Shown here piece after piece: positions 6,041 to 28,942 of a stretch of 64,000 nucleotides of DNA (within the stretch, counting starts at the first letter, position 1; the number at the start of each line of letters is the position of its first letter). Location of the stretch: the NCBI GenBank assembly GCA_937967805.1, contig CALBTC010000358.1, positions 24,050 to 88,049 on the forward strand, given 5' to 3'. Origin of the DNA: an uncultured Anaerolineaceae bacterium (GTDB lineage: Bacteria; Chloroflexota; Anaerolineae; Promineifilales; Promineifilaceae). The notes beneath the pieces are model-generated. The model searched no databases, had not been told where the DNA came from, and saw only the letters and a program-made list of their open reading frames with translations. The position numbers and the translations under genes were made by a program.

Positions 6041-6068
6041 ATACAGGAGTTTAGGCTTTAGAGAAAAT

Positions 6069-8666
6069 ATGACGACGACTTCACCTTCTTCAAGCAAGCA
6101 AGAATACGAAACGACGGAAATCGTTCCGGAAAATATCGAGACCCCCCATGCCAACCATCCCGATGAGGAGACCAAAACGGCATTGGAAAACGTTTGGGCC
6201 GATCCGCCGCCCGGGCTTGTGGGGGCAATCAAAGCGATTCAAAACGATGCCGTGGGCGGCCGTATCATGGGCACCGCTTTTCTCTTTTTTCTTATTGCCG
6301 GGGTGCTGGCATTGTTGATGCGCCTGCAGCTCATCGTGCCGGAAAATACATTGGTCGGACCGGATCGCTACAACGAGCTGTTCACCATGCACGGCTCCAC
6401 CATGATGTACCTCTTTGCCGTACCGATGATTGAGGGGATTGCCATCGTCATGCTGCCGTTGGTATTGGGCAATCGGGAGCTGCCGTTTCCCCGGCTGGGC
6501 GTGTTTAGCTACTTCACCTTCGTCCTGGGGGGGCTGCTCTTTTTCTCCAGCTTCCTGCTCAACGCCGTGCCCGATGCCGGCTGGTTTGCCTATGCGCCGC
6601 TCAGCGGCTTGAAATATTCGCCGGGTATTGCCCTCGACTACTGGCTGCTGGCCCTGGGGGTGGCCGAGGTGGCCGCCATCGCCGCCGGCGTAGAGATTAT
6701 CATCGCCATTTTGCGAATGCGTGCGCCGGGCATGTCGTTGGGGCGGATGCCGCTTTATGCCTGGGCGATGTTGGTAACGGCCGTATCCATCCTGTTCGCC
6801 TTTACCCCGCTCATCGTTGGCAGCCTGATGCTGGAGCTGGACCGCAAAATCGGCACCCAATTCTTTAACCCGGCCATGGGCGGCAGCCCTGTGCTGTGGC
6901 AGCACGTCTTTTGGATTTTCGGCCACCCCGAAGTGTATCTTCAATTTTTGCCCGCCACCGGCATGTTGGCCATGATTGTGCCCGTCTTTTCCCGCAGGCG
7001 CATCGTCGGCTACCCGTACATCGTCATGGCCATGGTTTCCACCGGCTTTGTCAGCTTTGCCCTGTGGGTACATCACATGTTTACCGTGGGCATTCCCCAA
7101 ATCGGCCTGGGCATCTTTACCGCCGCCAGCATTTTTATTGCCATCCCCACCGGCATCCAGATTTTTGCTTATCTGGCGACGATTTTAAGCGGCCGTCCCG
7201 TGTGGAAAACGCCTTTCCTGTTTGTGATTGGTTTTCTGGTGACATTTGTTCTTGGTGGCATTACCGGGGTGATGGTCGGCGCCGCCCCCTTCGACTGGCA
7301 GGCGCACGACTCTTACTTTGTGGTGGCCCATTTGCATTACGTGCTAATTGGCGGCGTGGTATTCCCTATTTTTGCCGCGCTTTATTACTGGATGCCAAAG
7401 TTCACCGGCAAGCTGCTGGATGAAAGATTTGGTAAATGGAACTTTTGGCTGATGTTTTGCGGATTTCATATCGCCTTTTTCCCGCAGCACATTGCCGGGC
7501 TGCTGGGCATGCCCCGCCGCATTTACACCTATCCGGCAAACTTTGGCTGGGATATTTACAACTTTATTTCCACAATAGGTGCCCTAATCCTGGGCGCCGG
7601 CGTGGCCGTCTTTGTCTACAATTTTTTCTGGAGCCATCGCCATGGTGAAGATGCAGGACAAAATCCGTGGGGGGCCGATTCGCTAGAATGGGCAACGGAT
7701 TCACCACCTTTAAACTTTGCCTTTTCCAAGCTGCCCATCGTGCGCAGCCGCCACCCTCTTTGGGACCAGCAAGGGCTGGATGAAGGCCAGTCTAAAACGC
7801 GCAAGCTGCTGAACGGGTTGGCCAACTGGCCCACCAAATGGCGCGCCGCCCTGATCACCTCTACGGTAGATGCCCGCCCGATGGAGATATTCCGCGTCTC
7901 GGGACCCTCCATCTGGCCCTTTATTGCCGCCGTCGGTTTGGTCACCATTTTCGGTTCAGAGATATTTAGTTTACGGCCGCTTTCCGTCCTGGGCATCGTG
8001 GTATTGGTGGTGGCCATTGTTGGCTGGAACTGGCCGTCTGAAACGCCCACCAGCGACGAAGAAGAACGCGCCTTTGAAGAAGAATACGATATTCCGGTGC
8101 GTACCTACGGCAGTCGCGTTGTTTCCCGCAGCGGCATGTGGCTGTTTATTTTGCTCATTTTCATTGCCCTGGCCAGCTTCCTTTTTAGCTACTTTTACAT
8201 TCGGATCGAAAGCAGCGCCTGGCCACAAGGCGGCCTCCCTCTGCCAAATTTGCGCTGGGTGGGGCTGGGCACGCTGCTCATCCTGGCCAACGTCCCCATT
8301 TTGCGCTGGACCTTTCGCAAAAGTCGGTATGACAACGACAAGGGCAAGCTGAGGCTGGGGCTGTTTTTAGGGTTCGTGGTGGAAGCCGGCGTATTGGCTT
8401 TGCTGCTTTACGATCTCAGCTTGTTAAATTTTGATTGGCGAATTAACGCTTATGGCTCGGTCTTTTTTGCCCTTAACGGCTATTTGCTGCTGCTGCTTAT
8501 TTTTGGTTTGGGCATCAACCTTTTCGCCCAATATTGGAGCTGGCGCGGTATTTACCATTCTAGACGGTACGTGGTGGTGGAAAACACAGCTTTGTACTGG
8601 ACGACGTTGGTAGGTGCGTGGCTGGCGCTTATCGGCGTGGTATACGTATCACCATACCTCATTTAA
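6069..8666 (+). CDS. Cytochrome c oxidase subunit I-III fusion
   Basis: 865 residues. The first 560 or so are subunit I, the haem-copper oxygen-reducing core. Visible ligand motifs are FTMHGSTMM (low-spin haem), WIFGHPEVY (CuB), WVHHMF (CuB) and VVAHLHYVLIGG (haem a3 and haem a ligands). From about residue 680 onward a five-helix block (SRSGMWLFILLIF..., GVALLLYDLSLLN...) resembles subunit III. Fusion of I and III is known in Thermus caa3 oxidase and several Chloroflexota. It lies 28 bases after coxB and is clearly in one operon with it. The ATG has only a weak upstream purine run. Confidence 0.92.
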   Translation: MTTTSPSSSKQEYETTEIVPENIETPHANHPDEETKTALENVWADPPPGLVGAIKAIQNDAVGGRIMGTAFLFFLIAGVLALLMRLQLIVPENTLVGPDRYNELFTMHGSTMMYLFAVPMIEGIAIVMLPLVLGNRELPFPRLGVFSYFTFVLGGLLFFSSFLLNAVPDAGWFAYAPLSGLKYSPGIALDYWLLALGVAEVAAIAAGVEIIIAILRMRAPGMSLGRMPLYAWAMLVTAVSILFAFTPLIVGSLMLELDRKIGTQFFNPAMGGSPVLWQHVFWIFGHPEVYLQFLPATGMLAMIVPVFSRRRIVGYPYIVMAMVSTGFVSFALWVHHMFTVGIPQIGLGIFTAASIFIAIPTGIQIFAYLATILSGRPVWKTPFLFVIGFLVTFVLGGITGVMVGAAPFDWQAHDSYFVVAHLHYVLIGGVVFPIFAALYYWMPKFTGKLLDERFGKWNFWLMFCGFHIAFFPQHIAGLLGMPRRIYTYPANFGWDIYNFISTIGALILGAGVAVFVYNFFWSHRHGEDAGQNPWGADSLEWATDSPPLNFAFSKLPIVRSRHPLWDQQGLDEGQSKTRKLLNGLANWPTKWRAALITSTVDARPMEIFRVSGPSIWPFIAAVGLVTIFGSEIFSLRPLSVLGIVVLVVAIVGWNWPSETPTSDEEERAFEEEYDIPVRTYGSRVVSRSGMWLFILLIFIALASFLFSYFYIRIESSAWPQGGLPLPNLRWVGLGTLLILANVPILRWTFRKSRYDNDKGKLRLGLFLGFVVEAGVLALLLYDLSLLNFDWRINAYGSVFFALNGYLLLLLIFGLGINLFAQYWSWRGIYHSRRYVVVENTALYWTTLVGAWLALIGVVYVSPYLI

Positions 8667-10606: not shown

Positions 10607-11617
10607 TTAGTCCCCCTCAGGTTCAGTAGTAAAAACCTGCTCGATCACTGCTTCTATGGGCGGGTCCTGAATGGTAAGATCGTTAATGGCCAGGTTGGTC
10701 AGCAGTTTGGTGGTGACTAGGGCCGTTTCCGCCTTGGGCACGCGCAAAACAGCCTGGCCTTCTGTGTAAGCGACCACTTCGCCAAACGGCCGTAATGCCT
10801 CCGCACCCCGCCCATTGGTCGCACCGGGCGCTAAATCCACCACAATCGTTTTGTGCGGCGAAAATCTTTGCACCAGCGCCGTCAAATCACCATCGAATAG
10901 AATTTTGCCATGATGGATCACAATCACCCGCTGGCACAGCGCCTCCACGTCCGCCATGTAATGGCTGGTCAGTAAAACAGATGCCCCATACCGCTGATTG
11001 TATTCAGCCACAAACTGGCGGATGCGTCGCTGCGCCGTCACGTCCAGGCCAATCGTTGGCTCGTCCAGAAACAGCACCTTGGGCCGGTGCAGCAGCGCCC
11101 CGGCAATTTCACACTTCATCCGCTCCCCAAGCGATAAATTACGCACCGGCTTGTGAATCAACGGGCCCAAATCCAGCAGTTCTGTAAGCTCAGCTAACGT
11201 TTGCCGGTATTCTTCTTCCGGGATGCTAAAAATGACCCGGTTCAGCTCAAAGGAATCGGCCGCAGGAATATCCCAAATGAGTTGATTTCTCTGGCCAAGC
11301 ACAAGCGTTATCTGCCGCAGAAATTCATTCTTCCTTTGCCACGGTGTAAAACCCAACACATCTGCTTGGCCGTCGCTGGGATGCAGCAGCCCGGTTAACA
11401 TTTTCAACGTCGTTGTTTTGCCCGCACCATTCGGACCCAAGAAACCAACAATTTCACCGGGAGCCACGGAAAAAGTGATGCCGTCTACTGCATGAACTTG
11501 TTTGGCTTTGCGTCTAACCAGGCTGCGCACGGCCGCACCTAACCCGGCTTCGCGTTCGTGGATGGTGTAAATTTTTTGTAGGTCGCGGATGGAAATATAG
11601 GGGGATGATGTGATCAT
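10607..11617 (-). CDS. ABC-2 type transporter ATP-binding protein
   Basis: A 336-residue ATPase with Walker A GFLGPNGAGKTTTL, signature LSLGERMKCEIA and Walker B KVLFLDEPTIGLD. A C-terminal 90-residue regulatory segment follows, of the NatA/YbhF-like ABC-2 exporter group. No permease gene flanks it: the neighbours face the other way or are separated by terminators. It may therefore serve a transporter encoded elsewhere, or be an orphan. ATG 11617 is preferred over an upstream in-frame TTG (11647), because a plausible promoter lies between them. Confidence 0.85.
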   Translation of the reverse strand: MITSSPYISIRDLQKIYTIHEREAGLGAAVRSLVRRKAKQVHAVDGITFSVAPGEIVGFLGPNGAGKTTTLKMLTGLLHPSDGQADVLGFTPWQRKNEFLRQITLVLGQRNQLIWDIPAADSFELNRVIFSIPEEEYRQTLAELTELLDLGPLIHKPVRNLSLGERMKCEIAGALLHRPKVLFLDEPTIGLDVTAQRRIRQFVAEYNQRYGASVLLTSHYMADVEALCQRVIVIHHGKILFDGDLTALVQRFSPHKTIVVDLAPGATNGRGAEALRPFGEVVAYTEGQAVLRVPKAETALVTTKLLTNLAINDLTIQDPPIEAVIEQVFTTEPEGD

Positions 11618-11623
11618 GGCTGG

Positions 11624-11651
11624 ATTATGGCACAGGTTGGTAATCAAGCAA
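11624..11651 (-). promoter_or_regulatory. Candidate sigma-70-type promoter of the ABC ATPase gene
   Basis: On the minus strand TTGCTT (11651-11646) is followed after 16 bases by CATAAT (11629-11624). The ATG at 11617 is only 6 bases beyond the -10 box, so transcription would be leaderless or nearly so. No Shine-Dalgarno is visible, which is consistent. Sequence pattern only. Confidence 0.35.
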
Positions 11652-12049: not shown

Positions 12050-15000
12050 ATGCTACAAGTGAAGCTGTTGGGAGCCACCAACATATCGCTTGACGGACAG
12101 GAGGTTTCCTTAACCGGCCGCCCGCTGGCTTTGCTTGCCTATCTCATGCTGGTTCGCCAATCTCATACGCGGCTAAAATTGGCGCAATTCTTCCATGAAG
12201 ATACCCAAAATCCCCAGGCGCAGTTCCGTTGGACCCTCAACAAACTAAAACAAGCGATAGGTCCAAAATACCTGATCATCGACCGGCATTCCGTTTCTTT
12301 TGCCTTTGATGCACCCCATGAGCTTGATGTCGTTTTGTTTGAAACGGGCGTGATTGAAGCTTATCGAGGGGAGTTGTTATCAGGCCTGCATCTTAACAAT
12401 GCGGCCGATTTTATGAATTGGCTCCTCTTTCGCCGCGAAGCATACAGGCAGGAATACGAATCTTTTCTGCTCAAACGATTAAATGCCAAATTGCAGGTTA
12501 GCGACTGGGAGGCTGTCATAAAAGTCGCACACCGTCTACTTGAACTGGATAATCTGCGTGAAGAGTGGCTGATGCCGCTTATGCAAGCCTACGAGAAAGT
12601 TGGCAATTCGGAACAGGCTTTAAATGTATATAAAGTGTATCAGCGTGGTTTGAAGAGGGATCTAAACCTACAGCCTGGGCCAGAAATACAGCGTTATGCC
12701 ACCCAACTAGCCACAATAACAGAGCAGAAGCAGTCGCTGCCGATTGATCAAAGACAGCGTCACTTACCCGCCTATTTACAGCCGGAAGGAGAAGAATGGG
12801 TCGACAACACGTTTGTAGCCAGGAAGTCACCGCTGCAACGATTAAACAATCTCCTTGACAAAGCTGTATATGGCAATGGGCAAGTGGGTTTCATCAAAGG
12901 CAATGCAGGGAGCGGCAAAACGACTTTGGTCCGGGCATTCATACAAAGGGCAACGAAAAATTATCCCAATCTCTTGATAGCCTACGGGCGGGGCACCGCA
13001 CTCAATCAGGTAGGAGTACCCTACCAACCTTTTATTGATATTCTGGCCATGTTGCTAGCTGATTTGGAAACGGCCGTAAATAATCAGCTCCTGCCACTTT
13101 CCCAGGCACGCCGCCTGTGGGAAGCTTACCCTCACACTTTCGCAACAATAGAAACTTTTGGACCGGATTTATTAAAAAATTGGTTTTCACACCTGGAGCA
13201 AACGGAAGGTTTGCCACAACCCGGACAATCTCAATCACAGGCAATTCTTTTTCAACAACTGGCAGTGACACTCACAGAATTATCCAGACATCATTCTTTG
13301 CTGCTTATTCTTGATGATCTTCATTGGGCCGATGAATCATCTATCAGTTTGTTCTTTCATTTATCCCAACGATTAGAGGGACACAAGATTTTTCTTGTCG
13401 GCGCCTATCGCGAGGAAGAGGTTTCCCCTGCAAAAACCAGTCATAATCAAACGATATTGGAAATTCAGCGAAGAAGTGGTAACCGGATGATCGACCTTGG
13501 GGCGCTCGGAGAAGATGAAAATAAAGATTTTGTCAATGCTCTTCTTGATAGAGACTTGAACCTCTATTCCGAACAATTTCGCAATGCATTTTTACAACAG
13601 ACCAATGGCCATCCTTTGTTTGCTACTGAATTACTTGAAGCCCTAAAACAGGAAGGGACACTCTTTCAGGACCAAAAAGGTTACTGGGACGACAAACGAG
13701 AGATTGTCTGGCAGCAGCTGCCAACCCGCGTCGAAGCGGTAATTGGCAACAGGATCAATAAACTAACTGAAGAAGTACAGCAAATATTAGCTGTTGCCTC
13801 TGTTGAAGGGAAAACATTTACAATTCAAGCAACAGCTCATGTAATGGGTTACGATAATCGCTCAGTACTAAAAATGCTTGAACCTGCTCTAACCCAATCA
13901 CCACGGATTATTCATCAAATTGAAGATGTTAAGCTGAAAGATTCACTTTTGCTTCAATTCAGTTTTTCACAGACTCTTTTTCAACAGTATCTGTACCAGC
14001 GAATCCATCCGGCAGAGGCCAAGCTTTTGCATGGAGAAATCGCAGAGGCATTAGAAACAGTTTATGGGGGCGCGGAAAAAGCTATCGGCTCCTTTCTTGG
14101 CCATCATTACGAAAAAGCCGGTCTGTTATTGAAAGCAGTTCATTATTATCAGGTGGCGGCGGAGACGGCCGTTTCACAATACGCGAATGAGGATGCAATC
14201 ATCTATTTTACCAAAGCCCTAGATTTATTGCCCCAAAACGATTTTTTGACCAGAGCTGATTTACTTCTGGCAAGGGAACGGCTCAGTGATTTATTGGGCA
14301 ATCGAGATGAGCAGGCAAGGGATATACAGTTGTTAAAGGAAATTGTGGATCAATCCCAGGAGCTGCAATTGGCGTCTGTTTACTTACTGCGAAAGGCAAA
14401 CTATTTCTTCCATCGCAACGACTTTGTAAAAGCAGAGGAACAAGCTGGTCAGGTTATCCAAAATAGCCAGAGCAATTTAGAGCTCAGATTAATGGCTTAC
14501 CAGATGCTAGGACGTATTCTCCTTATGCGAGGAAAGGTAGCAGAAGCCAGGACCGTCTTTACCGAAGCTTTAAAATGTGCTGAAGAGCTCACTGCGTTTG
14601 GCGTTGAGGCCACAATTTTTCGTAATTTTGGTTTGGTTTCATCTTTACAAGGTGAATTGACGATTGCCCGTTCCTATCTTGACAAAGCACATACCTTAAA
14701 TAGCCAGGCAAAGTCAACACTGGGTGAAGCTAAAACGTTACACAGCTTAAGTATTGTTGAGCATCAGTACGGGCATTATTCAAAGTCGCTTCAATACGCT
14801 GAACAAGCATTAACCGGCTTCCAAAAAGTTGGCTCCCGGAAGGAAGAAGCTGAAACATTGCAACATATCGGTGCGGTCAATGGGTCTTTGGGCAAACTCC
14901 AACATAGCATTCAATATTTGCAAAGAGCCCGACAAAATTTTCGTGTGTTGGATGATCAAGTGGGTGAGGCGATCTCTCTTGGTTACCTATGTGCAGCAAA

Positions 15001-15541
15001 TTATCAAAATAAACAATTTCTTACCGCTCAGGGATTTGCGGAAGAGGCCATTCAGCGTCTGGAGACGATCGATTTATTGTGGCACAAAAATTGGTTATAT
15101 ACGCTTTTGGCCAAAACAGTTATCAAACGCAATCAATGGGATGCTGCGCGATTGAATATTGAGGCTGCAAAAGAATGTTGGTTAGCGCTTGCTTTGTCGC
15201 CCTGGAATCTTTCTACACAGGCCGTCGAGCTCGAACTGGCTTATGAGACACGTGATCTTTACGCCGCAGAAAATATTATCCAGCCCATTGTAGACGAGTT
15301 AGAAGATCGTATGCCAAACGGAGCGGAAGATCCATTTTATATCTACGCTGTTTGCTACAAAGTTCTCATTAAGCTTAACAACAAGCAGGCTGTGCCGTTG
15401 CTCAAACGTGCCTATTTTAAATTGGACAAGATAGCTAAAAAAATCACAGACAAACAGGCTCGGCAAGCATTTCGCACAAATATATTAAGTAATCAAGAAA
15501 TCATCATGCGTTACAGTCAGGATGTGGAGGTGCAAAGGTGA
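12050..15541 (+). CDS. SARP/BTAD-family regulator with AAA ATPase and TPR repeats
   Basis: About 1163 residues. Residues 1-95 resemble the winged-helix DNA-binding region of SARP/AfsR proteins (LLGATNISLDGQEVSLTGRP...), and 95-240 the BTAD helical domain. An ATPase follows with Walker A GNAGSGKTTLV near 285 and Walker B LLILDDLHWADESS near 418. From about 690 to 1150 there are TPR-like helical repeats. Such proteins are ATP-dependent transcription activators whose repeats sense a partner. It opens a four-gene cassette: its TGA stop overlaps the GTG start of the lipoprotein gene. It probably controls the cassette or its targets; the signal is unknown. Confidence 0.85.
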   Translation: MLQVKLLGATNISLDGQEVSLTGRPLALLAYLMLVRQSHTRLKLAQFFHEDTQNPQAQFRWTLNKLKQAIGPKYLIIDRHSVSFAFDAPHELDVVLFETGVIEAYRGELLSGLHLNNAADFMNWLLFRREAYRQEYESFLLKRLNAKLQVSDWEAVIKVAHRLLELDNLREEWLMPLMQAYEKVGNSEQALNVYKVYQRGLKRDLNLQPGPEIQRYATQLATITEQKQSLPIDQRQRHLPAYLQPEGEEWVDNTFVARKSPLQRLNNLLDKAVYGNGQVGFIKGNAGSGKTTLVRAFIQRATKNYPNLLIAYGRGTALNQVGVPYQPFIDILAMLLADLETAVNNQLLPLSQARRLWEAYPHTFATIETFGPDLLKNWFSHLEQTEGLPQPGQSQSQAILFQQLAVTLTELSRHHSLLLILDDLHWADESSISLFFHLSQRLEGHKIFLVGAYREEEVSPAKTSHNQTILEIQRRSGNRMIDLGALGEDENKDFVNALLDRDLNLYSEQFRNAFLQQTNGHPLFATELLEALKQEGTLFQDQKGYWDDKREIVWQQLPTRVEAVIGNRINKLTEEVQQILAVASVEGKTFTIQATAHVMGYDNRSVLKMLEPALTQSPRIIHQIEDVKLKDSLLLQFSFSQTLFQQYLYQRIHPAEAKLLHGEIAEALETVYGGAEKAIGSFLGHHYEKAGLLLKAVHYYQVAAETAVSQYANEDAIIYFTKALDLLPQNDFLTRADLLLARERLSDLLGNRDEQARDIQLLKEIVDQSQELQLASVYLLRKANYFFHRNDFVKAEEQAGQVIQNSQSNLELRLMAYQMLGRILLMRGKVAEARTVFTEALKCAEELTAFGVEATIFRNFGLVSSLQGELTIARSYLDKAHTLNSQAKSTLGEAKTLHSLSIVEHQYGHYSKSLQYAEQALTGFQKVGSRKEEAETLQHIGAVNGSLGKLQHSIQYLQRARQNFRVLDDQVGEAISLGYLCAANYQNKQFLTAQGFAEEAIQRLETIDLLWHKNWLYTLLAKTVIKRNQWDAARLNIEAAKECWLALALSPWNLSTQAVELELAYETRDLYAAENIIQPIVDELEDRMPNGAEDPFYIYAVCYKVLIKLNNKQAVPLLKRAYFKLDKIAKKITDKQARQAFRTNILSNQEIIMRYSQDVEVQR

Positions 15542-16608
15542 ACCATTCTTCTTTGAACGATTCAAAATCCGTTTCATCAATCACTTTAAATAAGAAGTTG
15601 ACAAGACGTGAAATAGCGACAGCCAGAAAGAACAGATCGTGCTTTTCAAAAGCCATTCGGATTTTTGTCCTTATGGCCCTAGTGATTCCACTCTCATTCA
15701 TCTTTTCCGCTTGCCAACAAGAGGAAGAACCCATACAAATTGGCGTCGTCAACTTTCTTCCGGCTATGGACAAGGTGTTAGCCGGATTTCAGGAAAGCAT
15801 GAAGGATTTTGGGTATGAAGAAGGCACCGAAATTATATATATTTACGATGGCCCGGCAGCCAGTACAGAAGATTTACCCTCAATTGCGGAAGATTTGGTA
15901 AATGCAGAAGTAGACCTCATCTTGGCCTTTAGCACCGTTTCTGCACTGGCAACTAAGACGGCCACAGAAGGCACCAACATTCCTGTCATATTTGCGCCAG
16001 TGACCGATCCCAAGGGAAGTGGATTAATCGGGCCTGGCAGTAATCTGACAGGCGTCACCAATGGCGGCAGTGATCGCAAGCGGCTGGAATGGATGGTTGA
16101 GATTGTTCCCGACGTTCAAGTGGTTTATATCCCATATAATCCCAACAGCAGTGCCTTAAGTGCCCTGGCCGAAGTGAAGGAAACGGCCGAAGAATTGGGC
16201 CTGACCATTATTGAGCGGCAGGTTGAAGACCAGGCGGATATTATTACGGCCGTCTCGGAAATTCCAGAAACAGTTGACGCTATTTTTATATTACCGGACA
16301 TTGTGACTGTCGCAGAAATTCCCATATTTTACGAGGCAACCCTATCCAGGGAAATACCCATCGTTGGCGTAGAAACGGCCTCTGTTGAACAAGGCGCGCT
16401 GTTCTCATTTGGACTCGATTTTGAAGAAGTCGGTCACCAGGCAGCCGGCATGGCCGACCAATTACTAAAAGGTAACAGCAGCGTAAGTGAACTGCCAGTT
16501 GAGCCCACAGACTTCTTCCTGGACATCAATCTGGCTACGGCCGAAATCATTGGCCTGGAAATTCCCGACGAAGTATTGGAACAGGCACGGAATATTTATC
16601 GAGAATAG
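15538..16608 (+). CDS. ABC_sub_bind-type substrate-binding lipoprotein
   Basis: A 356-residue periplasmic binding protein of the ABC_sub_bind (TrpX-like) family. Family segments are IQIGVVNFLPAMDKVLAGFQ, DLILAFSTVSALATKTAT and IPVIFAPVTDPKGSGLI. The lipobox is FIFSAC (Cys about 59), after an unusually long, basic 40-residue N-terminus. GGAGG lies 7 bases before the GTG start, which overlaps the upstream stop, so the start is well supported. No permease or ATPase for import is nearby. In this context it probably presents a ligand to the membrane sensor encoded next, rather than feeding a transporter. Confidence 0.86.
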   Translation: MNHSSLNDSKSVSSITLNKKLTRREIATARKNRSCFSKAIRIFVLMALVIPLSFIFSACQQEEEPIQIGVVNFLPAMDKVLAGFQESMKDFGYEEGTEIIYIYDGPAASTEDLPSIAEDLVNAEVDLILAFSTVSALATKTATEGTNIPVIFAPVTDPKGSGLIGPGSNLTGVTNGGSDRKRLEWMVEIVPDVQVVYIPYNPNSSALSALAEVKETAEELGLTIIERQVEDQADIITAVSEIPETVDAIFILPDIVTVAEIPIFYEATLSREIPIVGVETASVEQGALFSFGLDFEEVGHQAAGMADQLLKGNSSVSELPVEPTDFFLDINLATAEIIGLEIPDEVLEQARNIYRE

Positions 16609-16685
16609 GTATCGCTTTCTTCACTTCCGTTTCACAGATCTCAACTCTCCTTAAAGGAATTGAAGATGAATCATCGTCATTCAAA

Positions 16686-19600
16686 ATGTTTAATCGCATA
16701 AGCTCTCGCCTTCGCATCACCTATATTTTATTGGCCGTACTGCCACTTCTCCTGGCCGGTGCCGTTATTTTGTGGATCAATTTTGATGCCTTAAGAAATC
16801 AGGCGCAAATTCTCCAGGAGGAGTTGGCCCGCAGAGTCGCGGCAGAGGTAGAGGCATATATTTTAAACATAGAAGAACAGATGAAGGTGATGATTGCGAC
16901 AACCGATTTAGAGCAGCGATCGGCGGCTGAGCAATTAGAAATATTCGATGAATTACGCGCCCAGCAGCCGGCCATCCGAGACCTCTATCTTTTAGACCGT
17001 CAGGGGAATGAAATTGTCCGTTCCTCCTTTTTAGCAATCAATCCGGAATCGACCCTGTCTAGCCGCGCCGGTTCCCCGGAGTTTCTGACACCGATACAAG
17101 AAAAAGAAACGTATTTTGGACCGGTATTAAAAGACGCGCCCATTCCCCAAATGATCATTGCTATTCCGCTTGAAAATCTTCGAACCGGTGAAATAGAATT
17201 TGTCCTCGTTGCTGATGTTTTATTCAATACCATCTGGGATCTGATCGAAAATATTGAAGTACGCGAAGGAGAAAACGTCTATATCATTGACAAAACCGGA
17301 ACAGTTGTGGCGCATCGCAACCCATCCGTCGTTTTGCGTGGACAAACGATCCCCTTACCCACGCAAAATCTGTTAATTGGCTTAGACGGGAACCCGGCAA
17401 TCGTCCAGTCCTGGTCAATTCAGTTAGGCGATGAAGCACTTGAGGTGGTGGCAGAAAAAGAATTTTCATCTGCCTTAAGTTTAGCCTATACAACTGTGGT
17501 TATCATTCTAGGCATTTTGGTATTGTCTTTAATAGTAGCCGCTGTATTAAGCCTGCTGGCGACCAATCATATGGTAAGGCCCATTCAGCAAATGGCAAGT
17601 GTGGCGCGAAAGGTGCAGGATGGGGATTTGGAACCACAAGCAAGAGAAAGTGGCCTGGTTGAACTCGACGAGTTGGCCAGGGCGTTTAATAGCATGACTT
17701 CTCAGTTACGAGGAATGCTGGCAAATTTAGAGAACCTGGTCGCTGAGCGAACGCACGCTTTGCGCAGCAGCGCCGAGGTCAGTCGTTATCTTTCCACAAT
17801 TTTGGAAAAAGATCTGCTCCTAACCGAAGTTGTTCATCGGCTCCACCGTGAAATGAAGTATGGGCTGGCTGAGATTTACCAGGCCAATGCCAATATTGCC
17901 AACTTAAAGCTGGTTGCTTCAAGCGAACAAGCAGCGGCCGGTACACCCTTGCCCCAACAAGATCAACTCCGCTCAGCTGCCATTATAAAAGCGGCCGAAA
18001 CGAGCCGCCCTGTTCATATTCCAGATACCCACGACAACAATGAGATTTCAGACGTTTATTCCCCATCTATGAAATTTCGTTCATTATTGGCCGTGCCCAT
18101 TGCTCGGGCAAACCAGGTCCTGGGCGTTTTGGCCGTGTACAAGCCGGGTCATCATGAAATTGGGTCCAGCGACGTAGATTTGGTGCAATCCATTGCCAAC
18201 CAGCTGGCGATTGCCTTGCAAAATGCCCAATCTTTTGAGCAGCTCGTTCAGGAGAAGCTGGACGAGGCGAAACAGCGCGAAGCGGCCCAAAATCAATTAG
18301 CCGCTTACCGCAATTCGCCGCTGGGCCGGGCCGATGCATTGGCGCAGACCTTGCTAGAACATCCAGAAAAATCACTGGTTTCGCTTTATAAGCTGGCCCA
18401 GGCGGTTGATGATGATCAGGATACGGCAAACCTGCTGGCAAATCTGCCGCGGGCCATCACAAATCGACACGCTGAGCAAGGATATAGCAACACTCTGGCC
18501 GCCGAATCGATAGGCAGCCTCATGTTTCGGCTGGCAGAAGGTTTTAATTTTTTGCACACCAGCCAGGACAATCCAGAGCTACTTTCTGTTGGTTTTCGTC
18601 AAATTTTGACCGCGCTAAAAAACGAAATGTGCCTCAACTGGGACGAAAGAGCGTCCATAAAGACAACCTTTGAACTGTGCCATCGCCTGATTTCGGCCAA
18701 CAGTGTTGAGCATATGACCGCCCTTGCATTGGATGATTGGACGGCCGCTTCAAAGACAACACCCACAAAAGCATTAATGGATGAATTACAGACATTGTCT
18801 CCAGTGCTAAACAGCTTGGCAGCCTACGAACGGGTCGAGACAGCCGAGGACAAAATTACCTATCTGGTGGCCGCAGTCGAGCAGTGGCAGCGAATTGACC
18901 GGCAGGCCCGCCAAAAACTGCAAGGGATTGACCGGATTTTATTGGAGCGAATTGGGCAAAAGGGTCTCAATATCGTCAATGGCGCATTAAGCGATCTCCA
19001 ATTGAAAGCCAAGATCGCCTACGAATTGTTGACGCGCCATACCTGGCAAAATGAATCGATTCCTCTCACCTTAATCCTGCGCAATGTTGGCCGCGGCGCC
19101 GCTTTTCATGTCCGTATCTCTTTGGTAGAATCCGCCGATTATTCCCTTATTGGTGAAGGTGCCGTTTTAGAACGAATCGGCCCTAAAGAAGAAACGAGGG
19201 TCACTCTCAATGTCCGCCCCCGATTGGAACAAGGTATTCGGGAATTTCGCGCGCGGTTTCTCATTCACTACACAGATCCACGTGGTGGAGAGCGGGTCGA
19301 GAATTTCGCAGATATTGTCCAGCTACTAGACAAATCTGAGCCATTTCAATATATCCAAAATCCATATGTTGTAGGCACTCCCCTGAAAGCAGGTTCCTCG
19401 CTTTTCTTTGGCCGAGATGATCTGGTTGTTTCTATCAAGGAAAATTTTTCCGGAGACCACCAACACAACCTTGTGCTTGTCGGGCAGCGGCGCATGGGAA
19501 AAACTTCCTTGCTTAAGCAGTTGCCCTTTCATTTCTCCGACGATTATGTGGTGGTTTATCTTGATGGTCAGGTAATGGGGTTAGATCCGGGGAGTGAGGC

Positions 19601-20513
19601 TTTCTTTCTCAATATCGCCACGGAAATCACGTTTGCGTTAGAAGACAAAGGTATCAAGTTACCGTTGCCGGAACCGGATGCTTTCACCCCAAATCCAGCC
19701 TCCTTTTTTGAGTACAAATTCCTGGCCCAGGTTATGTCGCTCATCGGCAAACGACATCTTTTGATCTTGTTTGATGAATTTGAGGAGTTGGAAAATACCG
19801 TTAACCGCGGCTTTCTCGATGCCACAATTTTTGGTTTTTTGCGGCACCTGATGCAGCATGTCCCGCGGCTTAGTTTTATCTTCTGCGGCACCCACCGGCT
19901 GGAAGAACTCTCAGCCGATTACTGGAGTGTATTCTTCAACATCACACTTTACCAGCATGTCGGCAATCTTTCCCTGGTAGACACGCTGCGATTAATTCAA
20001 GAGCCTGTGGCTGAGTATGGGATGCGGTACGATGATTTGGTGTTGGACAAAATCTGGCGTTTAACCTCCGGTCATCCCTATTTTTTGCAGCTTTTGTGCC
20101 ACAGCCTTGTTAACCAACACAACCGAACCAAACGCAACTATGTGACCATTTCTGACGTGAACAATGTGCTGGATGGCATCTTAGCCTCAGGTGAGGCTCA
20201 TTTTATTTACCTATGGTCGGAATCTTCTCCTAGCGAGCGTATGGTGCTGTTTGCCCTGAGTCGCATTATGCCCTTAACCGGCACCGCATCTGATATCACC
20301 ATTGGCGACTACCTGGCCGAGCGAGGGATGACGCTGCCGCGAATTCAAATTCGGTCTGCCTTATACCAGCTGGCACTGCGTGAAATCTTAATTGTGAACG
20401 ATCATGAGGAATCAGATAACAGCACCGTTTATCGCTGGCAATTGGGATTGTTGGGATTGTGGGTTGAGAAGTATAAATCTTACGGCAAGGTGATGGACGA
20501 GGCGCACGAATGA
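16686..20513 (+). CDS. Membrane sensor fused to STAND ATPase (Cache-HAMP-GAF-ATPase)
   Basis: 1275 residues. A membrane helix (about 11-31) precedes an extracytoplasmic dCache-like sensor (32-262), then a second helix (265-291), HAMP (295-348), a coiled coil and a GAF domain (370-510). A long helical region leads to a beta-rich stretch (about 790-890). A STAND-type ATPase begins at FFGRDD near 906, with Walker A GQRRMGKTSLL (about 932) and Walker B HLLILFDEFEEL (about 1025). There is no histidine-kinase or cyclase output; the ATPase replaces it. The start is uncertain because an out-of-frame ATG at 16666 has the better ribosome-binding site. The stop overlaps the next ATG. Confidence 0.85.
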   Translation: MFNRISSRLRITYILLAVLPLLLAGAVILWINFDALRNQAQILQEELARRVAAEVEAYILNIEEQMKVMIATTDLEQRSAAEQLEIFDELRAQQPAIRDLYLLDRQGNEIVRSSFLAINPESTLSSRAGSPEFLTPIQEKETYFGPVLKDAPIPQMIIAIPLENLRTGEIEFVLVADVLFNTIWDLIENIEVREGENVYIIDKTGTVVAHRNPSVVLRGQTIPLPTQNLLIGLDGNPAIVQSWSIQLGDEALEVVAEKEFSSALSLAYTTVVIILGILVLSLIVAAVLSLLATNHMVRPIQQMASVARKVQDGDLEPQARESGLVELDELARAFNSMTSQLRGMLANLENLVAERTHALRSSAEVSRYLSTILEKDLLLTEVVHRLHREMKYGLAEIYQANANIANLKLVASSEQAAAGTPLPQQDQLRSAAIIKAAETSRPVHIPDTHDNNEISDVYSPSMKFRSLLAVPIARANQVLGVLAVYKPGHHEIGSSDVDLVQSIANQLAIALQNAQSFEQLVQEKLDEAKQREAAQNQLAAYRNSPLGRADALAQTLLEHPEKSLVSLYKLAQAVDDDQDTANLLANLPRAITNRHAEQGYSNTLAAESIGSLMFRLAEGFNFLHTSQDNPELLSVGFRQILTALKNEMCLNWDERASIKTTFELCHRLISANSVEHMTALALDDWTAASKTTPTKALMDELQTLSPVLNSLAAYERVETAEDKITYLVAAVEQWQRIDRQARQKLQGIDRILLERIGQKGLNIVNGALSDLQLKAKIAYELLTRHTWQNESIPLTLILRNVGRGAAFHVRISLVESADYSLIGEGAVLERIGPKEETRVTLNVRPRLEQGIREFRARFLIHYTDPRGGERVENFADIVQLLDKSEPFQYIQNPYVVGTPLKAGSSLFFGRDDLVVSIKENFSGDHQHNLVLVGQRRMGKTSLLKQLPFHFSDDYVVVYLDGQVMGLDPGSEAFFLNIATEITFALEDKGIKLPLPEPDAFTPNPASFFEYKFLAQVMSLIGKRHLLILFDEFEELENTVNRGFLDATIFGFLRHLMQHVPRLSFIFCGTHRLEELSADYWSVFFNITLYQHVGNLSLVDTLRLIQEPVAEYGMRYDDLVLDKIWRLTSGHPYFLQLLCHSLVNQHNRTKRNYVTISDVNNVLDGILASGEAHFIYLWSESSPSERMVLFALSRIMPLTGTASDITIGDYLAERGMTLPRIQIRSALYQLALREILIVNDHEESDNSTVYRWQLGLLGLWVEKYKSYGKVMDEAHE

Positions 20514-20878
20514 ATAATCCATACATATCGCGGGGGCCTGTCAGGGATAGTTCGCTCTTTTTCGGTCGTCGCCATGAATTGCAGGAGATTACGGCTTTTC
20601 TGCTGGGGAACCAGTCTGTCTCCATTGTGGGGCCGCGAAAGATCGGCAAAACGTCCCTTTTGTTTCATTTGATCCGCCCTGAGACCAAGGCGTCGCTGGC
20701 GTTAGAGCAGCAATTTCTCTTTGTCTATTTGGATTGTGAGGTGTTGGGAGACAGTGAACATAGCGAGATTTTCGGTGTCTTTGCCTCGGAAATGGAGCTC
20801 GCCCTGGAGGAACAAGGGTTTGACCCGGAGCCCGCCTTAGAAAGAGCGATTGCCCATCCCGCTTGCATATCATTTTAA
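20510..20878 (+). CDS. STAND ATPase, N-terminal part of an interrupted STAND-kinase gene
   Basis: A 122-residue open frame starting MNNPYISRGPVRDSSLFFGR with Walker A VGPRKIGKTSLL near residue 41. It parallels the ATPase of the preceding gene, but ends at TAA 20876-20878 before Walker B. Walker B and the rest lie in the next reading frame segment in the same phase (20885 onward). Reading the stretch 20859-20890 one base out of phase gives PLAYHFNLLCA, which aligns with EYKFLAQVMSL of the neighbour ATPase. A surplus C near 20859 and a missing A near 20890 would explain the break. These may be real mutations or homopolymer sequencing errors. ATG overlaps the upstream stop. Confidence 0.75.
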   Translation: MNNPYISRGPVRDSSLFFGRRHELQEITAFLLGNQSVSIVGPRKIGKTSLLFHLIRPETKASLALEQQFLFVYLDCEVLGDSEHSEIFGVFASEMELALEEQGFDPEPALERAIAHPACISF

Positions 20879-20884
20879 TCTGCT

Positions 20885-22408
20885 GTGCGCAAGCTGAACC
20901 GGCGCGACATCCGCTTCGTAATCATTTTGGATGAATTTGAGAGACTTAGCTCGAATCCGAAGCTGAACGTCAATTTTTTCAATGCCCTGCGCTCTGCTGC
21001 CGGGCGCTTTCAGCTCGTTTATTTGACTGCCTCGACAAAACCTCTCATACACCTGACCTATGTGGAAAACCAGGAAGAGATTTTATCCAGCCCCTTTTTT
21101 AATATTTTTGCTCACCTTCATTTGGGCTTATTGTCCCAAGTGGAAGCGATACATTTAATAGAGGATCCAGCTAAAAATCATGGCAACCCATTTTCTCAGG
21201 ATGAGCAGTCCTTTATTTATGAGTTAGCCGGCGGCCATCCTTTTATGTTGCAGGTGGCTTGTTTTCACCTATTTTCATCTAAAGGAAACCGACTTAACCT
21301 TGAAGAAACCATACGCCAAGAACTGCAGGGCCATTATGAATATTATTGGCGCAATCTAACGCCTATTCAACAAAGTACATTAATGCGCTTACAAACCCTG
21401 CCTTTGGATCAGGAACCGGATACGACAATTGTTTCGGCATTACGCGATCTGAGTCAAAAATGTTTGATCGTTGAACAGGATGGGATATATCAATATTTCT
21501 CCCGCTCATGGCAAACATTTGTCTTTGAGCAAGAGGTGCCAACAATACAAAATCAATCTTCGGGCTCATTAAGTGGCAGCCATATCGCGCCATACGAAAT
21601 TGGAGATTTACTTGGGCGAGGAGGAATGTCTGAAGTATACAGGGGTATCCATATGCGGCTGGGGAAGCCGGTGGCCATCAAGGTTTTGCCCTCAATCTTT
21701 GCCAGCAAAGCGGACTTTCGCGCCAGGTTTCATAGAGAAGCCCGCGCAGTTGCTGCGCTCAGTCATCCCAATATCGTTCAGGTGTTTGATTTTGGTGATT
21801 TTCAGGGAGCCTATTATATGGTGATGGATCTGATTGATGGTCAGGATCTGATGGCCTTTCTCAATCAGTCTGATCCCCTTGCTTTGCCTCAAGTTCTTTC
21901 AATGGGAAAAGATATAGCCTCGGCATTAGATTATGCCCATAGTAAGGGCATCGTCCATCGCGATATTAAGCCTTCCAACATTTTACTGAGAGCCAACAAT
22001 GAAACAAATGGCGAATGGCCCTACAATTGCGTGCTGACTGATTTTGGCGTGGCAAAAATTCGCCAGGAGTCGACGAACTCCACCCAAACGGGCGGCATTT
22101 TAGGCACACTGAACTACATGGCGCCTGAACAAATACGCCAGACCAGCCAGGTGACCCACCACGCGGACATTTACGCGCTTGGCGTTGTTTTGTACCGGGC
22201 GCTGACTGGCAGGTTGCCCTTCACGGGTGACGATTTTGGTTCAGTGATTGACGGCCATTTGCACCGGGAGCCGCCAAATCCAAGAACGCTTAACGTCCAA
22301 ATTCCTGAAACCTGTGCTGCGGCTTTGTTGAAAGCTTTGTCCAAAGAGCCAGAAAAACGGTTTGAAACAGCCAATTCTTTCCTTGCTGCTCTAGAGCGCA
22401 ACGCTTAG
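20885..22408 (+). CDS. STAND ATPase C-terminus fused to Hanks-type Ser/Thr kinase
   Basis: 507 residues from a GTG that is probably not a natural start, since this is the continuation of the gene at 20510. Walker B RFVIILDEFERL appears within the first 25 residues. The STAND helical and winged part runs to about 225. A complete protein kinase (235-505) follows: glycine loop LLGRGGMSEVYRG, AIKVL lysine, catalytic HRDIKPSN, DFG as TDFGVAKI, and GTLNYMAPEQ. All catalytic residues are present. There are no PASTA repeats or membrane helix, so the kinase is cytosolic. The full protein would be about 632 residues and likely phosphorylates a target on signal from the cassette. A 50-base repeat begins at its stop codon. 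Confidence 0.85.
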   Translation: MRKLNRRDIRFVIILDEFERLSSNPKLNVNFFNALRSAAGRFQLVYLTASTKPLIHLTYVENQEEILSSPFFNIFAHLHLGLLSQVEAIHLIEDPAKNHGNPFSQDEQSFIYELAGGHPFMLQVACFHLFSSKGNRLNLEETIRQELQGHYEYYWRNLTPIQQSTLMRLQTLPLDQEPDTTIVSALRDLSQKCLIVEQDGIYQYFSRSWQTFVFEQEVPTIQNQSSGSLSGSHIAPYEIGDLLGRGGMSEVYRGIHMRLGKPVAIKVLPSIFASKADFRARFHREARAVAALSHPNIVQVFDFGDFQGAYYMVMDLIDGQDLMAFLNQSDPLALPQVLSMGKDIASALDYAHSKGIVHRDIKPSNILLRANNETNGEWPYNCVLTDFGVAKIRQESTNSTQTGGILGTLNYMAPEQIRQTSQVTHHADIYALGVVLYRALTGRLPFTGDDFGSVIDGHLHREPPNPRTLNVQIPETCAAALLKALSKEPEKRFETANSFLAALERNA

Positions 22409-23282: not shown

Positions 23283-24665
23283 TCAGTTAAGATAATCTTC
23301 CAGATGAACTTTTCCCCAGTGCAAAGGCCAGGCGCGTTCGTAGTTTTTACGCTCTCGACGATAGGGTACCGGCATCGTGGCGTCTATGCCCCATTTGCCC
23401 ACAACGGCGGGAAAGCGGGTCTCTTCCGTATCTGGCAGGGCGCCGGGAATGGGTACGGCCGTTGGATCAAACGGCAGGCCCCGGGCATTGTCAACCGTAA
23501 TCACATGGCGGCTGGGATCAACCCGTGTCGCCAGCGCATAATGCACATCTCGGTAGTCGTAAATGTTGATGTCCGGATCGACCGCAATGGCCATCTTCAT
23601 GTTGAGGAAGGGTGCGCTCAAGACAGACAGCAGCGCGTCTGTCACCTGCCCATCCATGACCGGGGCCACCTGGATGATGCAAGAAAGCGAACCGCCGCCT
23701 TGAGGAAAGTGAACATCAAAGACGGGAATGCCCAGCGCCTCTAATCGTTCAAAAATAATCGCTTCGTGGAACAGTCGGGGCATTTCCTGGTGATCGGTGA
23801 AGGGCGTCATGAGATGATTACGGTAAATGGGATTATTGCGCTTGGTAATAGCCGTTACCTCAAAAACCGGCATTTGTGAGGCATAAGGCGTGAACAGCAT
23901 CGTTGGTCCGGGCGAAGGTCCATCTTGAGCCAAACGCGCCGGGTTCACAACCCCTTCAATTACAATTGAGGCGTCGGCCGGCACCATCAAGTCAATCGTT
24001 TGGCACGGCGTCACCTCTCCTGGCTGTCCCGTGATGGTTTCAAAAAGCTCTGCCTCCCACCAGTCGCGATGAGGATGTGAGTAGCAGCCAGCCAGCTCCC
24101 AGGCCGGATGGGCGCCGATCACCAATGCCTGCGGCATCTTGGTTTGAGCCACTCGATGCTTCCCCAAGATCATATTTGCTGTTCTTGTCACGAACGATGT
24201 CACCATTTCATTGCGACTCAACACGCCACAGCGAGGAAACATTTGATTGAATTTTTTAGTTTCTGGATCTTGGTGAAAAACAAAGCTGGTTGTGTAAGGG
24301 TATGGATCTTTGTCTGTGTGCGTGATAATGGGCAGCATGGATAGATCAACATCGTTCCCAACAAACAGTTGCTCCTGGCAACGGCCGTTGTCAACAATTT
24401 TCAACGGTTTAGGTCCTTGCCGAATTATCTCAGCCAGCCGCGGGACCACTTCCTTGGGTTCGCAATTGAGTACCCGCGACTGGGCTTCACGGTTTACAAA
24501 AAGCTGATCAACAATGCGATGCCCGGCAATCTCTTTAATGTTGTTAAATATGATAGGTCCATTAGCCTGAGCAGTAAGCGCACCGATATGTTCTAGCGCT
24601 ACTTCCTTGTTTATCTGGACGAAAATATCCGAATTCCCATCGACAAAAGATTGTAAATCTAACAT
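23283..24665 (-). CDS. UbiD family decarboxylase
   Basis: 460 residues of the UbiD/Fdc1 family, which uses prenylated FMN for reversible decarboxylation of aromatic or unsaturated acids. Family segments are SIVIEGVVNPARLA, PVFEVTAITKRNNPIYRN and the C-terminal VGKWGIDATMPVPY. The segment that usually reads EGPFG(E/D) downstream of IVIEG is DGPSPGP here. Catalytic acidic residues should therefore be checked, and this may be a divergent subgroup. No UbiX-type flavin prenyltransferase is in the window. The start at 24665 has GAAAGGAAAG upstream. It lies in one operon with DUF2848 and the Liv transporter. Confidence 0.88.
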   Translation of the reverse strand: MLDLQSFVDGNSDIFVQINKEVALEHIGALTAQANGPIIFNNIKEIAGHRIVDQLFVNREAQSRVLNCEPKEVVPRLAEIIRQGPKPLKIVDNGRCQEQLFVGNDVDLSMLPIITHTDKDPYPYTTSFVFHQDPETKKFNQMFPRCGVLSRNEMVTSFVTRTANMILGKHRVAQTKMPQALVIGAHPAWELAGCYSHPHRDWWEAELFETITGQPGEVTPCQTIDLMVPADASIVIEGVVNPARLAQDGPSPGPTMLFTPYASQMPVFEVTAITKRNNPIYRNHLMTPFTDHQEMPRLFHEAIIFERLEALGIPVFDVHFPQGGGSLSCIIQVAPVMDGQVTDALLSVLSAPFLNMKMAIAVDPDINIYDYRDVHYALATRVDPSRHVITVDNARGLPFDPTAVPIPGALPDTEETRFPAVVGKWGIDATMPVPYRRERKNYERAWPLHWGKVHLEDYLN

Positions 24666-24697
24666 GATGTTAACTTTCCTTTCGGCAAAATTACGAT

Positions 24698-24767
24698 TAC
24701 AGATTTCACGCCAGGCCGCCAGGTGCACCAAACGATCTTTGCGACTTTGCGTGAGGCTATTTACAGA
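24698..24767. repeat. Dispersed ~70-base repeat, copy A
   Basis: This stretch, from ATTTCACGCCAGGCCGCCAG to about CAGAGGAG, matches the reverse complement of 62876-62945 with few differences. It lies in the roughly 317-base gap upstream of the UbiD-like gene, which otherwise holds only the hairpin at 24932 and no recognisable gene. Confidence 0.65.
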
Positions 24768-24982: not shown

Positions 24983-25657
24983 TCACCAGGGTTTCTCCAA
25001 TACATCGGCAATGACCCGAATCGTATATTCTAACTGTATGCTGTTTTCGGCTGCCGGGTCATGCAGTTCCGCCCAAAAGCGGCCGCTGCCACGAATGCCA
25101 CCGATGGCCGGCAAGGTTCCGGTGAGTAAGACAAAAGCGCCGGGTCTTCGTTTAAATGGCGTCATCGCCAGCAAATCGTCAGGCGACAGCAGGTCTCCCG
25201 CGGCGCCTTCTTGATACAGGACGCGATTACCAAATTCATCAATCCAGCTTCGCAGCAGCAGATTGTCCCATCGATCACGCACTTCTTTGATTGGCCACGC
25301 TTCCGCAGCAATCATTTTGGGACAGGCCAGCTTGGAAACAGCAATGTCTAATGTCTCAGCAGCCCGATCGGTATGGTCTGAGGCTAATGTTACGAGAATC
25401 TCATCCCGGTCAAAGATGAGGGCAATTTCCGCTTCGCCTGAAGTCCGGTGATGGGTCGTTACGAGTTCCTTTTCTTGCAAGAGCAGATGCGGTGGGGCAA
25501 GATAAAAGCTGGGCACACGTTCAGGCACCTGGATACCCGCAGCCGCCAATTCGGCAACATGAGCCTGTACCTGGGTTTGATTACGTCCGGTAAAGCCCGC
25601 GATAATGACTGCTTCAAAATCTATTTCCCTTCGATTCCCTGAAACCTTGAAAATCAT
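24983..25657 (-). CDS. DUF2848 family protein
   Basis: 224 residues resembling DUF2848 proteins, which are distantly related to fumarylacetoacetate-hydrolase-like folds and often accompany carboxylate-uptake operons. Visible features are the N-terminal GFTGRNQTQVQAHVAELAAAG, a central DHTDRAAET segment and a C-terminal GSGRFWAELHDP. The biochemical role is unknown; a C-C hydrolase or binding function is plausible. Its ATG overlaps the livF stop by four bases (25654-25657), so it is translationally coupled to the transporter. It probably acts on the imported compound before or after the UbiD-type enzyme. Confidence 0.78.
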   Translation of the reverse strand: MIFKVSGNRREIDFEAVIIAGFTGRNQTQVQAHVAELAAAGIQVPERVPSFYLAPPHLLLQEKELVTTHHRTSGEAEIALIFDRDEILVTLASDHTDRAAETLDIAVSKLACPKMIAAEAWPIKEVRDRWDNLLLRSWIDEFGNRVLYQEGAAGDLLSPDDLLAMTPFKRRPGAFVLLTGTLPAIGGIRGSGRFWAELHDPAAENSIQLEYTIRVIADVLEKPW

Positions 25658-26370
25658 GAAGGTGCTTCTCCCATATAGGTTGCCACCAGGCGAGGATCTT
25701 TGATCAGGTGAGCCGGGTCTTCACGGAGAACAATTTGGCCCAGATTGAGAACAACGGCCGTATCTGCCAATTGCAAGGCGCGCTGAATCTGCTGTTCAAC
25801 AATGATTAGCGTTAATCCCTGCTCATGTAAATTCTCAAGCTGGGCATAAACTTCATCAACGATTTTGGGCGCCAGGCCTAATGAAGGTTCATCCAGCAAA
25901 AGCAGTTTGGCGCCGGACATCAAGGCGCGTCCAATCGCCAGCATTTGCTGCTGTCCGCCAGAGAGCTGCCCGGCAGGATTATCAATACGCTCTATAAGCA
26001 CCGGGAATGAGTTTAAGATCTTTGCTCTTGTCGCCTTATACGCATCATTACTCAAATAAAAGGCGCCCAGGCGGAGATTTTCATCAACGGTAAGGTGCGG
26101 GAAAATCCGCCTCCCTTCCGGTACCAGGGCTATGCCCGAGCGTACCCGTTGATTGGCTGCCTTCCTGCTGATGTCTGTACCATTCCAGATGATCTTTCCC
26201 TTGCTTGGTCGAACGTCCCCGGCAATTGCTTTCAACAGGCTTGATTTTCCAGCGCCATTGCGTCCCAGCACGGCCAATATGCCACCCTTGTCAACCTCCA
26301 GAGAGAGATTTTGCAGGGCAATAACATTTCCGTACTTCACAGCCAAATCATTAATAACGAGCATAGCCAT
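25654..26370 (-). CDS. livF: Branched-chain amino acid-type ABC transporter ATPase LivF
   Basis: 238 residues with Walker A GRNGAGKSSLLKAI, signature LSGGQQQMLAIGRAL and Walker B LLLLDEPSLGLAP, all typical of LivF. It energises uptake with the LivG half of the fused neighbour. It starts where that gene stops (26370), indicating coupling. In operons of this type outside E. coli the substrate is often an amide, urea, or aromatic or aliphatic carboxylate, so the livF name describes family only. Confidence 0.93.
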   Translation of the reverse strand: MAMLVINDLAVKYGNVIALQNLSLEVDKGGILAVLGRNGAGKSSLLKAIAGDVRPSKGKIIWNGTDISRKAANQRVRSGIALVPEGRRIFPHLTVDENLRLGAFYLSNDAYKATRAKILNSFPVLIERIDNPAGQLSGGQQQMLAIGRALMSGAKLLLLDEPSLGLAPKIVDEVYAQLENLHEQGLTLIIVEQQIQRALQLADTAVVLNLGQIVLREDPAHLIKDPRLVATYMGEAPS

Positions 26371-28929: not shown

Positions 28930-28942
28930 ACTTCCCCTATTT

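Follow-up and report, generated by a model that had tools for sequence, protein, structure and literature searches.

What links four consecutive plus-strand genes in an uncultured Anaerolineaceae bacterium of the Chloroflexota (assembly GCA_937967805.1, contig CALBTC010000358.1)? The genes span positions 12050-22408 of the 64-kb stretch that we analyzed, called here the window, and encode a SARP-type regulator, a probable lipoprotein of the ABC_sub_bind family, a membrane sensor that ends in a STAND ATPase (STAND1), and a second STAND ATPase (STAND2) joined to a Ser/Thr kinase. A sequence-only reading had proposed a route from a periplasmic ligand through both STAND ATPases to kinase and transcription. 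We find that the cassette is real and wider than first stated, that its kinase gene is broken here, and that the SARP gene is accessory. As a whole, the locus is probably best explained as the dCache-headed member of a modular two-protein signaling system of Anaerolineae-type Chloroflexota.

The STAND1 and STAND2 genes recur as a pair across genomes. Residues ∼470 to 1272 of the sensor are common to many proteins with other N termini (roughly 40 to 55% identity), and these proteins, where named, come from Chloroflexota. In 30/31 Anaerolineae-type loci (homologous loci and proteins are designated L and P, respectively), a STAND2-type match is found on the same strand and at most 5.1 kb from the best STAND1 match, with locus L055 as the single exception; near-copies such as L083 and L085 were counted separately, and L002, whose contig ends inside the sensor, was excluded. 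In 17 genomes picked for having a STAND1 hit, 34 of the 38 STAND2-type hits have a STAND1-type hit no more than 6 kb away, in every case on the same strand, whereas random placement would give 0.24. The pairing still holds for 17/21 after removal of each genome's best STAND2 hit. These counts exclude 20/58 rows of the STAND2 search that fell inside STAND1 genes and 20/63 rows of the STAND1 search that fell inside STAND2 genes. Conversely, a STAND2-type hit was seen at this distance from 30/43 STAND1-type hits. As a control, we took the genes with a BTAD domain in the same genomes: among the 150 listed (of 195), a single one is near a STAND1 gene, on the opposite strand, with a limit of 7.5 kb from start to start instead of the 6-kb gap applied to STAND2. 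Contig sizes provide another view of the pairing, as 31 of 120 listed sensors (from 176) are on a contig exactly as long as that of one among 120 listed STAND-kinases (from 632), and shifting the lengths by 1, 2, 3, 5, 7, and 11 yielded 0, 0, 0, 0, 0, and 1 matches. Locus L001 has the sensor followed by the STAND-kinase with the same 4-bp overlap as in the window. The sensor-STAND1 and STAND2 genes are a strongly conserved pair, and the proposed route through two STAND ATPases to the kinase is therefore the best reading for that part of the cassette, but the SARP is no general partner of the pair.

The distances among STAND1 modules correlate with those among STAND2 modules (r = 0.87 over 29 pairs; 0/2000 shuffles as high), with a partial correlation of 0.54 given the kinase. 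This would fit a contact between the two modules, and also plain co-inheritance. A scan of viral contigs found no relatives, and a plasmid scan gave one partial match at 26% identity. At an E value of ≤1e-100, the sensor has hits in 0/24 genomes of the family and in 4/48 genomes of the order to which the LigA-nearest genome belongs (best LigA identity, 58%); since these four hits all begin at residue 457 or later, they lack the dCache part.

Both members of the pair carry exchangeable parts. dCache-HAMP-GAF heads precede STAND1 in the window, L001, and L002, and the other heads are multi-transmembrane (multi-TM, called by a simple hydropathy count) with GAF, sensor-HAMP-GAF, or multi-TM without a GAF match by Pfam (L083). 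Pfam also recognizes a propeller-type head (FG-GAP/PQQ-like) in L056:3798-8807. Very large sensors of about 1580 to 1810 amino acids (aa) occur in L056, at L004:7430-12178, and in the L053-L059 loci, and judging by length and similarity, L004, L005, and others among L053-L059 (L054 and L057-L059 included) may also have a propeller-type head. In a tree of 76 STAND1 modules (quick method, midpoint root), the dCache head has a single origin (support, 100) nested among multi-TM heads.

On the STAND2 side, the outputs recognized by Pfam are a Ser/Thr kinase, a Trans_reg_C winged helix, or EAD7, and no output was recognized by Pfam in the STAND2 proteins of L052 (359 aa), L095-L099, L103, L104, L106, and L108. 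The Trans_reg_C form is present in 10 loci (L004, L052, L053, L054, L056, L059, L074, L078, L080, and L107) and is predicted to be a DNA-binding version of the pair; in L004, L074, and L080, a winged-helix STAND2 and a kinase STAND2 flank one sensor. STAND2 proteins with an OmpR-type winged helix were seen near a sensor-STAND1 at L004:5435-6775, L053:13084-14424, L074:4734-6047, and L107:9547-10905. We also noted proteins of ∼460 to 470 aa with a weak Bactofilin match, below the cut-off, beside a STAND-kinase with a multi-TM sensor (L071:3735-5150 and L076:8480-9868), and open reading frames (ORFs) of similar size and place in L050, L072, L074, L075, and L081. This neighbor is possibly an output or a target in the multi-TM loci. 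We do not count it toward the dCache subtype, because a cupin gene and a thioredoxin gene come next in the window and a methyltransferase gene in L001.

The catalytic motifs are well kept. Of the sensors, 119/120 have Walker A and 120/120 have Walker B; for the STAND-kinases, the counts are 114/119 and 118/119, respectively. In STAND-kinases of at least 600 aa, the VAIK lysine is found in 110/112 and both HRDxKxxN and DFG in 112/112. All three kinase motifs are present in the 507-aa C-terminal piece of the window's STAND2-kinase, whose sequence thus qualifies it as a predicted Hanks-type kinase. AlphaFold2 (AF2) models of sensor residues 520 to 1275 and of the STAND2-kinase P0128 from "Candidatus Leptofilum" both have a mean predicted local distance difference test score of 82. 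The best fold matches of the sensor model are Cdc6/Orc1-type AAA+ proteins, with low TM-scores, and the P0128 model matches PknB through its kinase part.

Table 1. Features of the cassette (positions in the window)
Feature	Position	Strand	Details
Gene 1, SARP-type regulator	12050..15541	+	1163 aa; BTAD, AAA_16, TPR
BTAD domain (gene 1)	12356-12703
AAA_16 domain (gene 1)	12812-13390		
Gene 2, ABC_sub_bind (PF04392) binding protein	15538..16608	+	356 aa; probable lipoprotein; GTG start
Gene 3, membrane sensor with STAND1 output	16686..20513	+	1275 aa
dCache_1 (gene 3)	16788..17330	+	ligand-binding domain
HAMP (gene 3)	17562..17711	+
GAF (gene 3)	17817..18218	+
All-beta (CARDB-like) region (gene 3)	19014..19328	+	AF2 model; PF07705 precomputed on homologue P0073
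STAND1 ATPase (gene 3)	19395..20510	+	Walker A GQRRMGKTS and Walker B FDEFEE, both intact
Gene 4, piece 1	20510..20878	+	122 aa; N-terminal STAND2 half with Walker A; ATG start
In-frame TAA (gene 4)	20876-20878	+	between Walker A and Walker B halves
Gene 4, piece 2	20885..22408	+	507 aa; Walker B half of STAND2 and PknB-like Ser/Thr kinase
Ser/Thr kinase domain (gene 4, piece 2)	21593-22366	+

ORF and Pfam scans bore out four adjacent genes with the domains that had been claimed for them (Table 1). Overlapping stops and starts at 15538 and 20510 were said to link the four genes; genes 1 and 2 share GTGA (15538-15541) and genes 3 and 4 share ATGA (20510-20513), 4 bp each, but 77 bp separate the lipoprotein gene from the sensor gene. 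The SARP matches PF03704, PF13191, and PF13424, all above the Pfam cut-offs, which is the BTAD, ATPase, and TPR composition of SARP/LAL-type regulators. Its start is most likely the ATG at 12050, in agreement with the earlier assignment, because the resulting 1163 aa equal the length of its 84% identical relative P0242. In gene 2, a lipobox-like FSAC follows a hydrophobic stretch (assigned by eye; Cys codon at 15712-15714). Hydrophobic segments of the sensor begin near residues 5 and 270; in the AF2 model, a helical region of ∼250 residues precedes the CARDB-like part, and the C-terminal part of STAND1 appears winged-helix-like. The cassette region is not enriched in promoter-like (16 versus 15.8 in shuffles) or terminator-like (13 versus 13.8) signals. 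Genes 1, 3, and 4 have their closest named relatives in "Candidatus Leptofilum" (47, 68, and 65% identity), a member of the Chloroflexota, Promineifilales, according to NCBI.

Work on STAND ATPases has dealt mostly with single-protein switches of immunity and transcription. We propose that here two of them work together: the most likely path would run from the binding protein to dCache, HAMP, and GAF, then to STAND1 and the STAND2-kinase, and perhaps onto the SARP. The lipoprotein would bind a small molecule and dock on the dCache domain, and the signal would pass via HAMP and GAF to STAND1 and alter its nucleotide state. STAND1 would then assemble with the STAND2 encoded nearby, a predicted contact between proteins whose pairing is seen in gene order. 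Clustering of STAND2 would bring the fused kinase domains together and so activate them for phosphorylation of their targets, and the co-encoded SARP would most probably be such a target or a regulator further down the path, as with AfsK-AfsR. Since the pair in other loci has another sensor head or ends in a winged helix, the STAND-STAND contact may do what His-Asp phosphotransfer does in two-component systems. The resemblance to these systems extends to the swappable heads (dCache, HAMP, GAF, and multi-TM) and the swappable outputs, including the OmpR-type winged helix, but here STAND ATPases occupy the positions of the phosphotransfer domains; HisKA, HATPase_c, and REC were named neither in the window proteins nor in the STAND1 and STAND2 proteins scanned. 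The open-access literature that we searched for this combination yielded no description of a sensor-STAND gene paired with a STAND-kinase or STAND-winged-helix gene.

The fourth gene had been described as a STAND ATPase-kinase, and both domains are there, but the in-frame TAA breaks the frame. The position of the stop is a conserved sense position in 13/13 aligned relatives, and the frame continues past it without a gap, which rules out the TAA as a conserved recoding signal. Five close relatives with 82.9 to 87.0% protein identity each have an unbroken frame of 632 aa, and the window's own 507-aa product is present in the database. With a nonsense codon inside the gene, the kinase arm of this assembly is either recently lost or misread through a sequence error. 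The STAND2-kinase could then be a pseudogene and the cassette on its way out, an explanation that we regard as rather unlikely, though the absence of the TAA from the relatives speaks for it, as does the gathering of 4/15 private differences of the window protein at residues 118 to 124. Otherwise the gene has not clearly evolved faster than its sisters, with 21 to 25 changes on its own branch versus 17 to 28 on sister branches, and the kinase motifs are still kept. Elsewhere in the window, a gene similar to UppS (undecaprenyl diphosphate synthase) at 31354-32166 on the minus strand carries an in-frame TGA (31606-31608); Pfam covers profile positions 1 to 140 of 219 in its 186-aa ORF, and the same frame resumes past the stop. 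This second premature stop, which adds to the case for decay, stems from decay or assembly errors, and two such stops in one window are equally compatible with assembly or read errors. The kinase domain itself is nearest to PknB-type kinases by sequence and fold; unlike PknB/Stk1, the 507-aa piece has neither PASTA nor a hydrophobic segment, and a STAND2 module stands in front.

Alternatively, the paired STAND genes might form a conflict or defense module akin to the STAND systems predicted to counter invaders in multicellular bacteria, with a membrane head that senses invasion-related signals. The closest described system that we found is the two-gene nSTAND2 operon, which is predicted to counter invaders and to form a hetero-multimer (PMC8195603; eLife 2021;10:e70394). 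That operon is described there as mobile, with a conserved arginine finger in both proteins, eroded NTP-binding motifs in one STAND, and most commonly GT4 or HEPN as the fusion (PMC8195603). The operon resembles the present pair in its two adjacent STAND-core genes and the variable fused domains of both systems. The present pair differs from it in that homologues of both proteins, with few exceptions, retain the Walker motifs and in that its two STANDs are joined to a membrane sensor on one side and to a kinase or winged helix on the other. Pfam named neither GT4 nor HEPN in the pair proteins scanned, with other effectors not excluded. A defense role would also be in line with an effector-associated domain in L100, where the STAND2 (L100:3652-5052) has an N-terminal EAD7 match of 31.2 bits, just below the cut-off of 32; as an observation apart, this EAD7 is a link to predicted conflict systems. 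The kinase part scores strongly against kinase models of PADLOC, PD-T4-6 among them, but the strong PADLOC hits are confined to the kinase domain, as expected of a PknB-like kinase: the sensor and the lipoprotein have none, the SARP has a TPR hit, the 507-aa piece has kinase-domain hits, and the 122-aa piece has two weak PDC hits. Where an output was recognized, it is either a kinase that has its active-site motifs or an OmpR-type DNA-binding domain, and several of the heads belong to classical types of small-molecule sensor. The scans of STAND2 proteins named no domain of the nuclease, NADase, or protease kind. We consider a defense function improbable.

The lipoprotein looks like a part of the sensing module because 7/8 dCache-type sensors are immediately preceded by a binding-protein gene on the same strand; the eight are those for which the BLAST match extends over the dCache part and the DNA upstream was retrieved. 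Relatives of the window lipoprotein hold this place in L002, L088 (two sensors), L089, and L090, and other binding proteins do so in L087 (Bmp-type, 5945-6949) and L094 (NMT1-type, 4060-6117). The dCache assignment is borne out by Pfam for both sensors of L088 and for those of L089 and L090. With 7/8 dCache sensors so accompanied, one of them a histidine kinase (L090), a binding protein plus dCache probably constitutes a sensing module that serves more than one output. Beside heads other than dCache in the loci compared, BLAST (E ≤ 1e-6) found no relatives of the window lipoprotein, in a search that was not aimed at other binding-protein families. Bmp or NMT1 genes before membrane sensors (L087, L091, and L094) are perhaps a general arrangement in such genomes. 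LuxP-LuxQ combines a periplasmic binding protein with a membrane sensor that has a histidine-kinase output. The window likewise has a binding-protein gene beside a sensor with an extracytoplasmic domain, but its output is a STAND ATPase, and docking is here a prediction. Solved relatives of the lipoprotein are 3lkv, 6hni, and 3lft. Its match to the NCBIfam model of the tryptophan receptor TrpX reaches 143 bits, below the cut-off of 390, so that an aromatic amino acid as its ligand is only a guess.

The lipoprotein could alternatively be the transport subunit of an ABC importer, possibly one encoded at a distance, and be merely co-transcribed here, with the sensor acting alone through its own dCache. 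PF04392 does include the TrpX of an importer, and an ABC ATPase gene with no type assigned lies on the opposite strand at 10607-11647, but no permease was identified among the scanned neighbors of the lipoprotein. The upstream position before seven of the eight sensors, the L090 histidine kinase included, and the restriction of lipoprotein relatives found by BLAST to dCache heads make this explanation distinctly improbable. Liv-type genes at 25654-30211 include a receptor of another family than ABC_sub_bind. In that region, a 586-aa ORF (26370-28130, minus strand) matches LivG/UrtD-type ATPases over residues 351 to 581 and is perhaps a permease-ATPase fusion; near it are a Peripla_BP_6 receptor gene (28943-30211) and a UbiD-family gene (23283-24731).

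Full-length relatives of the SARP are P0242 (84%), P0243 (75%), and P0244 (47%). The contigs of the 84% relative and of an 85% identical STAND-kinase relative are both exactly 34,438 bp, and in "Candidatus Leptofilum" the SARP, sensor, and kinase relatives are on contigs of equal size (2.68 Mb), which does not imply adjacency. L002 has the order TPR protein, lipoprotein, sensor, and the TPR protein is 29% identical to the SARP over residues 491 to 1155; the contig end cuts its N terminus and puts the DNA-binding part out of view. The genes do co-occur outside the window, and the conserved order sought there recurs in pieces (L001, L002, and the SARP and STAND-kinase on 34,438-bp contigs), but the full four-gene order was seen in no other single locus read. 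A general partnership of the SARP with the STAND pair is ruled out by the BTAD control (1/150). From these few loci, the SARP appears linked to the dCache subfamily only, as an accessory.

In Streptomyces, AfsK-AfsR joins a Ser/Thr kinase, not known to have a STAND domain, to a SARP-type regulator with ATPase and TPR. The kinase and SARP proteins of the window both match the NCBIfam AfsK and AfsR models, but the scores of 95 bits (cut-off, 1300) and 57 bits (cut-off, 1430) fall far short. As SARP-type genes are numerous (195 BTAD hits in the 17 genomes), the SARP neighbor could be there by chance; that all four genes are merely adjacent signaling genes with no common pathway is very improbable in view of the 34/38 pairing against 0.24 expected and of the overlapping genes in the window and L001, and such an explanation remains mainly for the SARP.

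A few results weigh against a dCache-headed member of a two-protein signaling system. The sensor at L091:5924 is directly preceded by another sensor gene, not by a binding-protein gene, and that upstream gene is itself preceded by an NMT1-type gene (L091:2297-3301). There is no STAND2-type hit within 6 kb of 13/43 STAND1-type hits, all of at most 155 bits. The kinase gene of the window is not open, and the SARP linkage rests on few loci. STAND1 distances correlate nearly as well with those of the kinase (0.85) as with those of STAND2, and gene order and correlated trees are also expected from plain co-inheritance.

Going beyond this locus, we tentatively put forward a new two-protein signaling class that recurs across Anaerolineae, in which a sensor-STAND would switch an effector-STAND and AAA+ co-assembly would replace phosphotransfer; we hold this wider proposal as possible, with somewhat less confidence than the assignment of the cassette itself. 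A sensor and effector STAND pair with swappable heads and outputs would add a signaling architecture to poorly studied bacteria, and it would offer a route by which membrane signals reach Hanks-type kinases that have no sensor of their own.

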